A stretch of DNA of 54,505 nt, taken from contig DUPC01000039.1 in assembly GCA_012838545.1 (NCBI GenBank), forward strand, positions 1 through 54,505, read 5' to 3'. A program made the translations under genes and the position numbers. Shown piece by piece: positions 269 through 10,811 of the stretch. The notes under the pieces were generated by a model that was given only the letters and a program-made list of their open reading frames with translations, did not search any database and had not been told where the DNA came from. This DNA is from Acholeplasmataceae bacterium (GTDB lineage Bacteria > Bacillota_I > Bacilli_A > ML615J-28 > CAG-313). Position 1 is the first letter of the stretch. Every line of letters begins with the position of its first letter.

Positions 269-1717
269 TTATAGACTTTTTCCAAAATCTTTTTGGAAAG
301 CTTCAGCTAATTGTTTTTGCCACGGTGAGGATGGATTAAGTTCGCCAAAGAAGAAACGCAAAATATCCGGTTCTTTGACAAACTTTAATCCGCCTACCAA
401 GTGACGGTGGTTATATAACCAAACGATTCGGTCAATGGCGTAATTGACTTGTGAAAGAGTAAAGACTCTTCTCGGCAAAGCCAGGCGCAGCAATTCCACC
501 TCTGCAAGCCTTTCCCTTCCGTCTGGTTCCCTTTGTTCGGACATGGTACCCCGTTCCATACCTCTGATACCGCTCACTATATATAGCGCTGAAGCCAGTG
601 CCCCTGCCGGGTATTCGGTTTGAGGAACATGAGGGAGAAAACTTTTGGCATCCAAATGACAGCCCAGTCCGCCCGGAGGAGTAACGACCGGCACCCCGTG
701 TTTTTCCAAGGCTTCCACCATATAGGCAATAAACTCCGGACCTTGGTTGATAACTTCTTCATCCATAGTTTCGTCCAAACCAACTGCTATTGCTTCCATT
801 TCTTTGACACTCATTCCCCCATAAGTGAGGAATCCCTCATATAATGGAACCAATTCTTTCATTCTTTCGTATAAATCTTTATCCTTTAAGGCAAGTCCTC
901 CGCCTTTGGCAAACCCGAGTTTGCGAGCCGAGAAGTAAACAATATCAAATAACGAACAGATTTCTTTCGTTAATTCTTTGATGGATTTGTGTTTTTCCGC
1001 TTCTTCTCTTTTTTTGATGAAATACAAATTGTCCTGTAACAGACTTGCATCGAGCACAGTGATTATTCCGTGTTTTTGACACATGGAGACAACTTCCCGA
1101 ATGTTGGCCAGCGAAAAAGGTTGTCCGCCAATTAAATTAGTGCCTGCTTCCATTCTTAAAAAGGCGATTTTTTCTTTGGGATACTGGGAAAAATACTTTC
1201 TTAACTTCTCAAGATCCATATTGCCTTTAAACGGATGGGTGCTTTGAAGTTTAAGCCCTTCGTCAATGACTAACTCGTCGACTTCCCCTCCTTGCAAAAC
1301 AATATGCGATTTGGTTGTGGTGAAATGGTAATTCATCGGCACGCGCATTCCTGGTTTTACCAAGGTTTTGGCGATAATGTGTTCACAAGCTCTTCCTTGG
1401 TGAGCCGGCAAAAAGAACGGTAATCCAAATAACGAGGTAACCTTATCTTCCAATTTGTAATAAGTTGCGCTCCCCGCATACGCATCATCAGCAATCATCA
1501 TCGAGGCGAGTTGTTGATCGCTCATCGCATTGACGCCGCTGTCGGTCAACATGTCCAAAAAGACATCTTCGTTTTTTAGCAGGAAAGTGTTGTTGCCTGC
1601 TTTGGCAATAGCTTCCAAGCGCTTTTCCAGCGGAAGCAAATGAAGTTTTTGCACAATTCGAACTTTGTGCATCTCCAGAGGTTGTTTAGGTAAAAATTTC
1701 ATTTCAATGTTTGTCAT
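269..1717 (-). CDS. Tyrosine phenol-lyase/tryptophanase family PLP beta-eliminating lyase (TPL-like)
   Basis: 482 residues, close to the 456-471 of tyrosine phenol-lyase (TPL) and tryptophanase. These PLP enzymes cleave tyrosine to phenol, or tryptophan to indole, plus pyruvate and ammonia. The PLP lysine is K266 in SARK. D223, Y80 in DDAYAG, R109 in HQGR, N194 before GGQP and the terminal PRR arginines align with TPL active-site positions. MERG in the C-terminal third matches TPL (its Arg381 region) rather than tryptophanase, which has VEIG. The Arg four residues after the PLP Asp (TPL R217) is Leu226 here, and the GGH histidine motif reads GGL, so it is a divergent member and the exact substrate is open. 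Start: ATG behind GGAAGG. The gene is preceded by a T-box leader and follows tpiA. Confidence 0.8.
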   Translation of the reverse strand: MTNIEMKFLPKQPLEMHKVRIVQKLHLLPLEKRLEAIAKAGNNTFLLKNEDVFLDMLTDSGVNAMSDQQLASMMIADDAYAGSATYYKLEDKVTSLFGLPFFLPAHQGRACEHIIAKTLVKPGMRVPMNYHFTTTKSHIVLQGGEVDELVIDEGLKLQSTHPFKGNMDLEKLRKYFSQYPKEKIAFLRMEAGTNLIGGQPFSLANIREVVSMCQKHGIITVLDASLLQDNLYFIKKREEAEKHKSIKELTKEICSLFDIVYFSARKLGFAKGGGLALKDKDLYERMKELVPLYEGFLTYGGMSVKEMEAIAVGLDETMDEEVINQGPEFIAYMVEALEKHGVPVVTPPGGLGCHLDAKSFLPHVPQTEYPAGALASALYIVSGIRGMERGTMSEQREPDGRERLAEVELLRLALPRRVFTLSQVNYAIDRIVWLYNHRHLVGGLKFVKEPDILRFFFGELNPSSPWQKQLAEAFQKDFGKSL

Positions 1718-1765
1718 GTTTTTTTTCCTTCCTTATTCTATTAAATTTTAATAGGGTTGAGGATG

Positions 1766-1796
1766 AAAAAAAGATCCATCCTCGACATAAGGACGA
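1766..1796 (-). terminator. T-box conditional terminator
   Basis: On the minus strand TCGTCCT (1790-1796) pairs with AGGATGG (1776-1782), with two G-U wobbles, and seven T follow (1766-1772). The 5' arm sits just after the T-box sequence, where the competing antiterminator would sequester it. This is the expected switch geometry. Confidence 0.8.
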
Positions 1797-1990
1797 ATCT
1801 AACAATAGACCGTGGTACCACCTTACTTCGCTATTTTTAAAAAATAGCCTCATGTTTGTTTTGGGGGCTGGATTACAAACAACCAGGACAAACTCCCATA
1901 TTGGTATTTCGCTTATCTCCTTTTGAAGCACTCTCACCAACCGTGCTCTCTCTGAACATTAAAAGGAGTTGCTACTGGGCAATATGATCA
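1766..1990 (-). promoter_or_regulatory. T-box tRNA-sensing leader of the lyase gene
   Basis: The minus-strand leader has the hallmarks of a T-box. A long stem I opens with AACTCC and closes with GGAGTT. It contains the conserved AGAGAG and GGTTGGTGAGAG elements. The antiterminator T-box is GGTGGTACCACGG (1810-1822), followed by a terminator hairpin (1776-1796). The 3' side of the specifier loop reads GAAATACCAATAT. The specifier is either UAC (Tyr, 1904-1906) or, shifted by one base, ACC (Thr). Tyr agrees with the TPL-like gene downstream, but the register cannot be settled by eye. T-boxes raise expression when the cognate tRNA is uncharged. Confidence 0.88.
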
Positions 1991-1997
1991 ACGTTCA

Positions 1998-2765
1998 TCA
2001 TTTAGTTTTTATTAGTGCTGCTTGCGTGAAAGTCAAGAAATCTTTCGCGTCAAGACTGGCACCGCCGATTAGTGCGCCATCGATGTGCGGTAGCGCAAGT
2101 AGCGAATCAATGTTGGATGTTTTTACGCTGCCTCCATAAAGGATGCGAATGTTTTCCGCAGCATCATCACCATACATTGTATCGATTAAGAAACGAATAA
2201 AGCCGATTGTTTCGTTGGCTTGTTCGGGTGTAGCGGTTTTACCGGTTCCGATTGCCCAAATCGGTTCATAGGCAATAATCAAGTTTTCCACTTGTTCTTT
2301 GCTTAAACCTTGCAAATCGGCTTGAATTTGGGTTTTGATTACTTGTTCGGTTTTTCCGCTTTCCCGTTCGCTTAAGGATTCCCCCACGCAAAGGATAGGG
2401 ATTAAATCCTTATTAAACGCTGAATGCAATTTTTTGTTTACTGTTTCGTCGATTTCATTAAACATGGCTCGGCGTTCGCTGTGACCGATAATGACATAGC
2501 TTACACCTAAGCTTTTTAACATATCCGGAGATATTTCTCCAGTGAAGGCACCGCTTGATTCATAATGCATATTTTGGGCGCCAATACGTAGGTTTTCTCC
2601 TTGTCGCTTGACTAAGCAACGAAGGACGGTGAATGGTGCGCAAATGACACTTTCCACCAAATCTTGGGAAGGCACTTCGTTATTTACCGCATAAATAAAC
2701 TCAAGCGCCTCTGGGCGGGTTTTGAACATCTTCCAATTACCCGCAATCACCGGTTTTCTCATCAT
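1998..2765 (-). CDS. tpiA: Triosephosphate isomerase
   Basis: Interconverts dihydroxyacetone phosphate and glyceraldehyde 3-phosphate in cytoplasmic glycolysis. 255 residues is the standard length. The family N-terminus RKPVIAGNWKM carries the Asn and Lys of the active site. IIGHSERR holds the electrophilic His, AYEPIWAIGTGK the catalytic Glu base, and LYGGSVK and GGASLD the phosphate-binding loops. It lies 12 bases downstream of pgk and is surely co-transcribed with it. Two adjacent ATGs follow GAGGAAAA; the second (2762) has the better spacing. No GAPDH, phosphoglycerate mutase or enolase gene is next to it. Confidence 0.97.
   Translation of the reverse strand: MMRKPVIAGNWKMFKTRPEALEFIYAVNNEVPSQDLVESVICAPFTVLRCLVKRQGENLRIGAQNMHYESSGAFTGEISPDMLKSLGVSYVIIGHSERRAMFNEIDETVNKKLHSAFNKDLIPILCVGESLSERESGKTEQVIKTQIQADLQGLSKEQVENLIIAYEPIWAIGTGKTATPEQANETIGFIRFLIDTMYGDDAAENIRILYGGSVKTSNIDSLLALPHIDGALIGGASLDAKDFLTFTQAALIKTK
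2009..2036 (-). promoter_or_regulatory. Candidate promoter for the T-box transcript inside the end of tpiA
   Basis: On the minus strand TTGACT (2031-2036) is followed after 16 bases by TAATAA (2009-2014). A start point just past it would give a leader of about 285 nt, a normal T-box length. It overlaps the last codons of tpiA. It is the best sigma-A-like match near the leader, but read-through from pgk-tpiA could also supply the RNA. Confidence 0.45.
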
Positions 2766-2777
2766 TTTTCCTCGTTT

Positions 2778-3971
2778 CTATTTTTCTGCTAAGCATTCAA
2801 TGCCAGGTAATTTCTTACCTTCCAAGTATTCCAAACTTGCCCCACCGCCTGTGGAGATATGGGTAAATTTGGTTTCATAGCCATTGTTGATGGCTGCGGC
2901 CGCGGAATCACCTCCGCCGATAATCGTAATGGCATCTTCCATGTTGGCCAAGATTTCGCATAAACCAATTGTTCCTTTGGCAAAACGTTCAAATTCAAAT
3001 ACACCCATCGGACCGTTCCAAACAACGGTTTTAGCACCTTGCAATTCTTTTTTGAAAAGTTCAAGCGTTGCTTCGCCAACATCCAAACCCATTTCATCGG
3101 TCTTAATGTCGGTCGTAGTGGCTGTCCGCGCCGGAGCGTTGGCATCAAATTGTTTGCTTAACACAACATCGACAGGCAACACAAGTTTGCCTTTGCTTTT
3201 CTCAAGCAAGCCTTTGGCAAGATCCACAAAATCACTTTCGCATTTGGACAATCCTACTTCCTTGCCTTGGGCTTTATAGAATGTATATGCCATGGCACCG
3301 CCAATTAGAATTTTATCTGCTTTCGTCAAAAGGTTTTCAATAACCGAAATCTTATCGCTCACCTTGGCACCGCCAAGAATAGCCACAAACGGACGTTTAG
3401 GCTCATCAACCGCATTCCCCAAGAACTTGATTTCTTTTTCCATCAAGAAACCTGCAACACTATCTTTATGATGGGCGGCAATTCCTACATTGGAAGCATG
3501 TGCGCGGTGTGCGGTTCCAAAGGCATCATTGACAAAACAATCGCCTAAACTTGCCCAATAAGCGCCAAGTTCCGGATTGTTTTTCGACTCTTTTTTACCT
3601 TCAATGTCCTCGAAGCGCGTATTTTCAAACATTACGATTTCGCCTTCTTGCATTGCGTTGATGGTTTGTTCAAGAGTCGCGCCTCTGGTTGTAGAAACAA
3701 ACTTAACGTCTTTCTTAAGAAGCGATGCAAGTTTTAACGCTACCGGATACAAACTGTTGTCATTTTTATCGCTTTCGCTTGCCACTCTGCCCAAATGGGA
3801 AAAAAGAATAACTTTGGATCCTTGATCAAGCGCATATTGAATTGTCGGTAAAGCTTGGACAATTCGGTTGTCATCGGTGATCTTGCCGTCTTGCATCGGC
3901 ACATTGAAGTCCACCCGAATCAAAACTTTTTTGCCTTTTAAATCTATGTCACGAATTGTTTTCTTTGCCAT
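2778..3971 (-). CDS. pgk: Phosphoglycerate kinase
   Basis: Transfers phosphate from 1,3-bisphosphoglycerate to ADP, the first ATP-yielding step of glycolysis. 397 residues, full length. Visible signatures are [12 protein letters not shown] and SHLGR in the N-terminal substrate domain, ENTRF, the [15 protein letters not shown] segment, [11 protein letters not shown] in the nucleotide domain, and GGGDSAAA and [13 protein letters not shown] at the C-terminus. The start ATG is preceded by GGAAGG. It is the first gene of a pgk-tpiA pair. The upstream region 3972-4064 is AT-rich and I could not assign a convincing promoter there. Confidence 0.97.
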
Positions 3972-7913: not shown

Positions 7914-10106
7914 TTACGCTCCTTTTATTCTTAAAGCGATTAAAGTCATATCGTCATTGTTTTTCAGTTCATTTTTGTTGGCAAAATTGAATAATTCATA
8001 AACGATGCGTTGAGGAGTCAAATCTTTAATTGACTTAAGAAACGTTTCAAGCCGGTTGTCATCAACAATGTTTTCCAGGATGCCGTCGCTGCTCATGATG
8101 ATGACATCGTTATCCTTTAGCGGTACTTCATAATTTTCTACCAATTCTTCAATGCCGAAAGGTAGGCTTTTGTTAATGATTTTTTCAAGCGTTCCGTCTT
8201 CATGAATAATATAAGATGTGCATCCCCCCATTTTATAGAACTTGGCCATTGTTTTAAAACGATTGATTTCCAGAAGATCTAAAGTAGCATAACGTTCCAA
8301 ATAATCTTGAATTACATAAAAGGTGTTGAGGATTTCCAAAGCGGTGGATGAATCAAGGTTTAAGGACAATACATCTTCCACCAACTTTAAAGTGATGTTG
8401 CTTTCATAGAAAGCGCTGTACCCTTTTCCCATGCCATCGGAAATGGCACTGATGAACCTACCGTTGTTGAGGTCTTTTATGACGTAATTGTCGCCATTGA
8501 TTTGGGTACCGTCGGAAGCGATTGCTCCATAACCGTACAACACGTCAATTTTGATTTCTGGGATAATTTTTAAATAAATAGTGTTGCGTTCTTCTTTTTC
8601 GAATAAGACGCTTACCCTTTTTTCCATTACGTTTTGGCAGATTAGGGAGATTGCGGAGTGGATATCATCCCATTCGGATTTGCTGGCTTTAATGCCTAAG
8701 GAAATAAAAAAGTCATTGACAAAGGTGCGTTTGATTTCAAAGTAAGTAATATGGTAACCATAACCGATGATTCTTCTTTTTAACTCAGCAAACACTTCGT
8801 ATTTTAATTCTTCTTTGGAAGCCAAGTCAACAGCGTATTTTCGGATGGCACTGGCGATTCCCCCCATTTGCGCCACCAAAGAATTGTTTTTTGTTTCGCA
8901 TTCATCGAAAATAGTCACGTTTTTCCGCAACATTCTTCCCGTGTATTCGAGCTCCCTCACATGAGGGCAATAGCGGGTAAATTGATAATATTCATCATTG
9001 TCCTGAGCTTGTCCGACAATAATATCGCGAAAATGAATATATAACCCTGCTTTATAATGGCTATAACACTCTTTTTGCTTGTCGCATCTTTGGCAGTGTT
9101 TTTGGACCAAAGTTTTGATTCCGTCACTGATATGTTGGTTGTATTCTTTGGGAAGTTTTATGCCATCGGAAAAGCGTTCCAAAAATGAAGCAAAAGCCAG
9201 AATTTCCTGATTGATTTGCCCGGTGACTTGTTCATATACATTTTCATATACTTCTTCATCAACCACCTTTTCTTTTATCAAAAAGTTTTTAAGAATTTCA
9301 AAAACCACGCTTGTTGCCATCATGGAAAGAAGCGACAATAAATGATAATCGGTTTTTGCCAAAATGGCTACAACTAAAAAAATATTTAAAGAGATTAGCG
9401 GATAAACAAAAGGCATAAAATAAAACGCACAGACAAAAGGCAAAAAAAGCGCTTCATTGATTTCAAAACCAAACAAAAGGGTTAACATGGCAATAACGCC
9501 ATAAAGCATAGCATTTTGCCCCCGGAAAGAAGTTCCAAAATACATCGCAAAATATACCGCTGTCAACAACCCCGCATTTATCCCTTGGTACTCGATAAAT
9601 GTAGCTCCCAAAATTGTCACCAAAGCGATTAAGATTTCCAAAAAGGAATTGTCGTAAAGGCTTCGCATCATTTTTGTAGCTTTCAAAGCTTCAATTAAAC
9701 TGTGTTCCAAATAAACATAAAAACTTAGGGAAATAATGTTCAAAATAACTAGATGCAAAGGCGAAACTAACAAAGTAACTTCCATTAACCCCGCCCGATC
9801 AAGTACTACGCAAGCAACGACATTTAATAAAAGGATGGCGCCATAAACATAAAAACCTTTGGATATCCTATGAAGCAACATCTGCAATACATAAACAATA
9901 ACGGTTAAAAACAAAAAATATACCGCAAACTCTCTGGCAAATAATATTAAAGCAAGCAAACTTGGGACAAAAAGATAATAGATATTTCGGTTGTCTTTCA
10001 AAACGTAAAAGAACAGCAAAGGTAAATAAAGCGTAAAGCCGATAGGAAAAAGCACGGTTAAAACGCTAAAAAAAGCAATAATAATTAAATTTACCTTTTT
10101 AAACAT
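7914..10106 (-). CDS. spoIIE: Stage II sporulation protein E-like membrane serine phosphatase
   Basis: In Bacillus, SpoIIE dephosphorylates SpoIIAA and so activates sigma-F in the forespore; it also acts at the polar septum. This 730-residue protein has about ten hydrophobic segments in residues 1-310, a central region with a Cys cluster (CQRCDKQKEC), and a C-terminal PP2C-type phosphatase domain with ISDGMGKGYSAFYES and SSDGILENIVDD. B. subtilis SpoIIE has 827 residues. The ATG at 10106 is favoured: AAAGGA is nine bases upstream, while the longer TTG start has none. A TATAAT hexamer lies 30 bases upstream (10136-10141). I could not find a clear Spo0A box. Confidence 0.88.
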   Translation of the reverse strand: MFKKVNLIIIAFFSVLTVLFPIGFTLYLPLLFFYVLKDNRNIYYLFVPSLLALILFAREFAVYFLFLTVIVYVLQMLLHRISKGFYVYGAILLLNVVACVVLDRAGLMEVTLLVSPLHLVILNIISLSFYVYLEHSLIEALKATKMMRSLYDNSFLEILIALVTILGATFIEYQGINAGLLTAVYFAMYFGTSFRGQNAMLYGVIAMLTLLFGFEINEALFLPFVCAFYFMPFVYPLISLNIFLVVAILAKTDYHLLSLLSMMATSVVFEILKNFLIKEKVVDEEVYENVYEQVTGQINQEILAFASFLERFSDGIKLPKEYNQHISDGIKTLVQKHCQRCDKQKECYSHYKAGLYIHFRDIIVGQAQDNDEYYQFTRYCPHVRELEYTGRMLRKNVTIFDECETKNNSLVAQMGGIASAIRKYAVDLASKEELKYEVFAELKRRIIGYGYHITYFEIKRTFVNDFFISLGIKASKSEWDDIHSAISLICQNVMEKRVSVLFEKEERNTIYLKIIPEIKIDVLYGYGAIASDGTQINGDNYVIKDLNNGRFISAISDGMGKGYSAFYESNITLKLVEDVLSLNLDSSTALEILNTFYVIQDYLERYATLDLLEINRFKTMAKFYKMGGCTSYIIHEDGTLEKIINKSLPFGIEELVENYEVPLKDNDVIIMSSDGILENIVDDNRLETFLKSIKDLTPQRIVYELFNFANKNELKNNDDMTLIALRIKGA

Positions 10107-10189
10107 ATCAGTCATTCCTTTCCCGTTGCAGACCAATTATACAATGCTTAAAAGGCATAATTTATCATTTTTTGGTTTTGTTTCACACT

Positions 10190-10224: not shown

Positions 10225-10256
10225 GCATTTCCTCGTAATTTTTTTTTAGCTTAGAC

Positions 10257-10412
10257 TTAAATTTCGGTAAAGGCGTCCTTTCCTAAACCACAATCTGGGC
10301 ATACCCAATCATCAGGCAAATCTTCAAAAGCGGTTCCTGGCGCTATCCCTTGCGTTGAATCGCCTAATTCGGGATCGTAAACATAGCCGCATACGCATTC
10401 GTATTTCTTCAT
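10257..10412 (-). CDS. Rubredoxin
   Basis: A 51-residue iron-sulfur electron carrier. The two metal knuckles are visible: CVCG at 6-9 and CPDCG at 38-42, with the YDP and GI-PGT-FEDLP-DWVCP pattern of rubredoxins. It starts at ATG 10412 behind AGGAGG. In anaerobes rubredoxin donates electrons to rubrerythrin, superoxide reductase or oxygen-reducing flavoproteins in oxidative-stress defence. No partner enzyme is adjacent, and the gene appears to be monocistronic with its own terminator. Confidence 0.95.
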
Positions 10413-10493
10413 TTCATTTCCTCCTTGATTGTTTTTAACATTATATCATGAGAAGAACTGCGATGCAACTAAAAGGATTATTTATAGTTATTT

Positions 10494-10811
10494 TTAAAAC
10501 CTTTCTCCACATTGATTGCAATATCTGGCGTTTTCTTCGTTGACCGCATTACACAAAGGGCAGCGTAAATTGACCTTATGGGTAGTTTGTTCGACATCGT
10601 AACCGTCTGAGGAATAGTGGTTGCGTCTGCCGATACTGCTCACTACCCCATACATTATGCCAAAAAAAGCAAATAAAAACCAAGGGATTATCGGCAAAAA
10701 AACACAGCCTCCGCCAACAGCCATAAAGCCGCTAAAAGCAAAAGCAAAAAAAGAAATAATAATACCGACTCCGCAGATAATTTGTAAAACTTTTCTTTTA
10801 TTTCTCGACAT
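10494..10811 (-). CDS. Small membrane protein with C-terminal zinc ribbon
   Basis: 105 residues. Two hydrophobic segments (about 7-30 and 35-60) are followed by a soluble tail ending in CPLCNAVNEENARYCNQCG, a double CxxC zinc ribbon. The function is unknown; such proteins are common and usually annotated only as zinc-ribbon domain proteins. The ATG follows AGAGGTG. It lies 22 bases downstream of the nitrilase-family gene and may be co-transcribed. Confidence 0.8.
   Translation of the reverse strand: MSRNKRKVLQIICGVGIIISFFAFAFSGFMAVGGGCVFLPIIPWFLFAFFGIMYGVVSSIGRRNHYSSDGYDVEQTTHKVNLRCPLCNAVNEENARYCNQCGERF

Follow-up and report, generated by a model that had tools for sequence, protein, structure and literature searches.

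Why should a T-box, an element that raises expression when its cognate tRNA is uncharged, stand in front of a gene for an enzyme akin to lyases that destroy tyrosine? An earlier note, made from the letters of the DNA alone, saw this paradox at positions 269-1990 of the window (the whole 54,505-nucleotide stretch that was analysed, from an Acholeplasmataceae bacterium). It offered three ways out: the enzyme runs in the synthetic direction, it acts on another substrate, or the specifier is not tyrosine.

The leader upstream of the enzyme gene is a genuine, full-length tyrosine T-box and a member of a known RNA class. In a focused covariance search, Rfam model RF00230 aligned with window positions 1786-2000 (minus strand) across model positions 1-219 of 219, taking in Stem I, the linker and the antiterminator domain, at 80.9 bits (E 4.3e-18). 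Because this score falls under the Rfam gathering score for RF00230, 93 bits, a default-threshold Rfam scan of the window missed the leader and reported nothing. The internal (specifier) loop of Stem I is GCGAAAUACC, and the covariance-model alignment together with the sequence yields the specifier triplet UAC (Tyr) at 1904-1906 (minus strand). The genome contains a tRNA-Tyr(GUA) with the 3' end A-CCA (discriminator A), and the UGGU bulge of the leader, within GGUGGUACCACG, pairs with the ACCA end of this tRNA. The leader thus has what a T-box should have, a specifier cognate to a genomic tRNA and a bulge of the UGGN type that can pair with the 3' end of that tRNA.

The 3' part of the leader forms a switch. 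The antiterminator with the T-box bulge UGGU (AAGUAAGGUGGUACCACG...CGUCCUUAUG; 1786-1828, minus strand), placed by the covariance-model alignment, has a folding energy of -9.0 kcal/mol when folded alone. A terminator scan located an intrinsic terminator at 1766-1800 (minus strand), with a 12-bp stem and a T run laid out as AGAUUCGUCCUU-AUGUC-GAGGAUGGAUCU-UUUUUU and a folding energy of -14.5 kcal/mol, again alone. Both structures use the segment AGAUUCGUCCUU, which is the 3' arm of the antiterminator, and they are therefore mutually exclusive, as is expected of a T-box. With both of them intact, a degraded leader is ruled out. The T-box and the tyrosine specifier reported in the earlier note are accordingly upheld, its coordinates agreeing with ours within ~10 bases. 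We also looked for the combination that it regarded as fatal to its reading, a specifier for an unrelated amino acid together with a broken antiterminator, and found UAC and an intact antiterminator instead.

In RNA class, tyrosine specifier and transcription antitermination architecture, the leader is similar to the T-boxes of tyrosine genes surveyed in PMC2494555. It differs from them in its target, a TPL/tryptophanase-like enzyme: the tyrosine T-boxes of that survey precede tyrS, a tyrosine biosynthesis operon and, in the B. cereus group, phenylalanine hydroxylase, and the known targets make, import or attach tyrosine (PMC2494555). The word 'lyase' is absent from the survey, and a search of open-licence papers did not find a T-box paired with TPL or tryptophanase, a pairing that may be described elsewhere. 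The RNA class itself is known; what seems new is the T-box on this enzyme family and, possibly, a new physiological route to tyrosine.

On the minus strand, the gene order is pgk (phosphoglycerate kinase, 2778-3971; best match to the PGK part of NF010569), tpiA (triosephosphate isomerase, 1998-2765; NCBIfam TIGR00419, 188 bits against a cut-off of 130.6), the T-box leader, and the open reading frame of the 482-aa PLP enzyme (269-1717). The tpiA stop codon overlaps the first T-box bases (window positions 1998-2000), and a promoter scan found no minus-strand promoter-like site from the leader up to pgk. The nearest such site on this strand (4039-4011, TTGCAA-17-TAAAAT) lies upstream of pgk, the first gene of the likely transcript. 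With its start at the tpiA stop codon and no promoter-like site back to pgk, the T-box is probably an intercistronic attenuator inside the glycolytic pgk-tpiA transcript. An attenuator that senses an amino acid thus seems to be fed by a glycolytic operon.

A scan of ten near neighbours of the enzyme gene found nothing aromatic. At 7914-10136 (minus strand) the window holds a gene resembling that for the sporulation phosphatase SpoIIE (169 bits, under the curated cut-off of 490.8), although the whole genome measures only 1.7 Mb. Eight other T-boxes were found in this genome, before valS, alaS, asnS, serS, trpS, thrS, pheS and hisS (loci L022 to L027, L029 and L030; gene names assigned from the translations). 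Apart from the lyase-like gene, every T-box target there is a tRNA-synthetase gene; none of the eight others was found before a transporter or biosynthetic gene.

The kinship to tyrosine and tryptophan lyases that had been read from the translation is borne out: the 482-aa protein scores 592 bits against the NCBIfam tryptophanase/TPL subfamily PRK13238 and matches PF01212 (E 2e-50) and solved TPLs (E 5e-113). The sole curated family that it passes bears the name 'tryptophanase'. It lies under the cut-offs of the TPL equivalog TIGR02618 (446.9 bits vs 720.7) and of the tryptophanase equivalogs TIGR02617 (347.4 vs 825.8) and NF053783 (404.5 vs 750). In a tree, 99/99 sampled members of its family fell on a single branch with a support of 100, and TPL and tryptophanase stood together on the other side. 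Family members are 59-76% identical across phyla, and homologues from genomes of the same phylum form two groups, at ~59-67% and 35-41% identity, with none in between. At least 585 homologous matches were obtained from a genome collection; the best 80 of these, at 63-76% identity, belong to Firmicutes, Proteobacteria (Rhodobacter, Rhodopseudomonas and Azonexus among them), Spirochaetes, Actinobacteria and others. No conserved operon partner of the family appeared among 80 loci, and an IMG/VR search gave matches at 38-39% identity only. The fold of an AlphaFold2 model (mean pLDDT 74) is closest to TPL (TM 0.81, 40% identity); the model is informative on the fold alone, since several loops of the active site are of low confidence. 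Judged by sequence, the enzyme is a member of a third, uncharacterised family, or deep branch, beside TPL and tryptophanase, and our search found no characterised member. The same genome also encodes a separate, canonical tryptophanase-like paralogue (L019, G000:C34:35170-36519), which has D124, I381 and H448 (TPL numbering) and is not preceded by a T-box.

Five positions separate tryptophanase from TPL: Asp137/Thr124, Phe304/Met288, Val394/Met379, Ile396/Arg381 and His463/Phe448 (PMC5805759). Four of the five are TPL-type in the third family, T124, M379, R381 and F448 being kept in 90/90 members examined; position 288, Met in TPL, is Phe in all 90, as in most tryptophanases compared. The tryptophanase set Asp137, Val394, Ile396 and His463 (E. 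coli numbering) is replaced by Thr, Met, Arg and Phe. The window enzyme resembles tryptophanase (TnaA, EC 4.1.99.1) in fold, PLP site and NCBIfam subfamily, but lacks its residues D124, V/I381 and H448 (TPL numbering). With TPL (EC 4.1.99.2; e.g. Citrobacter freundii, PDB 2ez1) it shares the fold at ~40% identity, the catalytic Y71 and K257 (invariant in the 90 members), the PLP-site residues D214, Q98 and R100, and the four tyrosine/phenol-specific residues. It differs from TPL in its sub-threshold TIGR02618 score, its own branch, its Tyr T-box control, a C-terminal extension that has near-invariant W, F and D in its family, and five changed positions. These changes, E69D, R217L, K256R, N262R/K and H343L, occur in 90/90 members, at positions that do not vary among the TPL, tryptophanase and paralogue sequences used for comparison. 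We take E69 and N262 to lie at the monovalent-cation site of TPL and R217 to lie near its PLP 3'-oxygen; because the changes hit these residues, cofactor handling or cation dependence may differ between the third family and TPL.

Curated cut-offs, residues and tree together rule out an ordinary TPL or tryptophanase. Of the catabolic-type, tyrosine-destroying lyase that had been proposed, the lyase kinship stands and the identity with catabolic TPL does not, given the equivalog score, the deep branch and the five family-specific changes. The four retained tyrosine/phenol-specific residues also speak against action on another substrate as a way out of the paradox.

The T-box is not peculiar to the window. 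Leaders of this kind precede 28 family members in diverse Firmicutes, including the window's; 21 of them exceed the Rfam gathering score of 93, that of the window falls a little short of it, and the other six were picked out by motif only and read by eye. The specifier is UAC in 28/28 homologous leaders, a few of these triplets having been read by eye, and in one case (L037) the leader lies ~400 bases upstream of the gene, which makes its assignment less sure. UAC is the only triplet common to all 28 leaders at the specifier place. This rules out a non-tyrosine specifier, and with it one of the three ways out of the paradox. T-box presence requires at least nine changes on the gene tree, and the pairing has therefore been gained or lost repeatedly. 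Most family members, including those of photosynthetic Proteobacteria, are without a T-box, absence at the other genome-collection loci being judged from motif patterns rather than by covariance search. Purple bacteria (Rhodopseudomonas, Rhodobacter, Rhodovulum, Rhodoblastus and Rhodomicrobium) are among the carriers of T-box-less members (L052, L056, L062, L071, L073, L074, L079, L085 and L098). At L063, a locus whose family gene is under T-box control, there is a second T-box (10249-10494, minus strand) on the other strand, ~4 kb downstream of that gene.

How tyrosine is obtained in these organisms bears on the role of the enzyme. We examined the pathway gaps of the window's genome family by family. 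In this genome, which is 96% complete, neither prephenate dehydratase nor prephenate dehydrogenase (PF02153) was found, the latter giving only a 21-bit fragment under the cut-off; phenylalanine hydroxylase was not found either, and chorismate synthase is present. Formation of tyrosine from phenylalanine by this hydroxylase is ruled out by the absence of its gene, and intracellular phenol from a UbiD-type decarboxylase by the absence of any such gene from the genome.

Among family members for which both facts are known, many of them from incomplete metagenome assemblies, prephenate dehydrogenase is missing from 21/28 genomes with the T-box vs 4/40 without it, or 21/28 vs 3/29 when 11 loci of other phyla are left out; the T-box carriers are related, and the association is not phylogenetically independent. 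Independent contrasts between T-box and prephenate dehydrogenase came to only three well-supported pairs, which gives no power. Most T-box-less members tested have prephenate dehydrogenase, and for the family taken together there is no enrichment in genomes that lack it (8/11 in the sample from the phylum, where the base rate is ~79%). Within the phylum, then, it is only T-box presence, and not family presence, that tracks the loss of prephenate dehydrogenase. Most T-box carriers without prephenate dehydrogenase also lack prephenate dehydratase. Such carriers need phenylalanine from outside and could import tyrosine too, which is a point against synthesis.

We propose that the T-box switches on a tyrosine-supplying enzyme, most likely one that runs TPL chemistry backwards; we infer the direction, the substrate and the phenol source, and the proposal seems to us evenly poised between right and wrong. 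Uncharged tRNA-Tyr would pair through its GUA anticodon with the UAC specifier and through its free ACCA end with the UGGU bulge. Its binding would hold the antiterminator, and transcription from the pgk-tpiA operon would run on into the enzyme gene. When tRNA-Tyr is charged, the 12-bp terminator would end transcription after tpiA. The RNA parts of this switch are seen in the sequence, and read-through on tRNA-Tyr binding is what the established T-box mechanism predicts. The enzyme would join phenol from the surroundings to aminoacrylate, which would derive either from pyruvate plus ammonia or from serine, and a cell that has no prephenate route to tyrosine could still charge its tRNA-Tyr.

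A tyrosine-supplying role is suggested because a tyrosine-consuming enzyme would worsen the very signal that induces it, and because the pairing is conserved with a single specifier. Synthesis from phenol and a three-carbon unit is the simplest proposal, since the phenol-recognising residues are kept and TPL chemistry is reversible; PMC7508748 describes its use to make tyrosine and L-DOPA. The phenol would have to come from outside, because the genome has no UbiD decarboxylase and the gene has no conserved neighbour. Of the ways out that had been offered, it is the synthetic direction that we favour, because the Tyr T-box recurs and most of its carriers lack prephenate dehydrogenase. It is tempting to extend this to the third family, as an oxygen-independent and prephenate-independent tyrosine synthase in vivo that uses scavenged phenol and a three-carbon unit and is controlled by a Tyr T-box in Firmicutes without prephenate dehydrogenase. 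We hold this wider claim tentatively and rate it somewhat short of an even chance.

The enzyme could also supply tyrosine from a source other than phenol, for example by transamination of 4-hydroxyphenylpyruvate or by release from modified or conjugated tyrosine, and the T-box logic would be unchanged. The substitutions at E69, R217, K256, N262 and H343 suggest altered chemistry or cation dependence and, like the missing phenol source in the genome, would fit such a role. However, the phenol-recognising T124, R381, M379 and F448 are invariant, as are the catalytic Y71 and K257, and we consider a non-phenol source unlikely.

Less likely still is a plain tyrosine-destroying lyase over which a tyrosine T-box gained control by chance or for the sake of pyruvate or ammonia, in which case regulation and function conflict. 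Homology to TPL and the TPL-like fold are consistent with it, and the TPLs characterised so far are generally regarded as catabolic. Against it, 28 genomes share the pairing and its specifier, the protein is not TPL by the curated cut-off, and a genome without prephenate dehydrogenase would defeat its own ends if tyrosine shortage induced tyrosine breakdown. We find it similarly improbable that the substrate is tyrosine-like or cysteine-type and belongs to some other process, such as phenol detoxification or the making of a beta-replacement product, which the T-box would couple to tyrosine supply. TPL-type enzymes do accept several beta-substituted amino acids, and the wide distribution of the family in organisms with prephenate dehydrogenase and its want of conserved gene neighbours agree with this idea. 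Yet detoxification would need no sensing of tRNA-Tyr, none of the leaders has a specifier other than Tyr, and the residues specific for tyrosine are retained.

If the family does make tyrosine, as we favour, phenol would turn from what is usually regarded as waste left by the breakdown of tyrosine into a precursor of it, and strict auxotrophy would no longer hold for many genomes that are at present scored as tyrosine auxotrophs. The route would work without oxygen, unlike that of phenylalanine hydroxylase, whose oxygen limit is noted by GapMind (PMC7311316). In this case the T-box specifier provides independent evidence for the direction in which a reversible enzyme runs.
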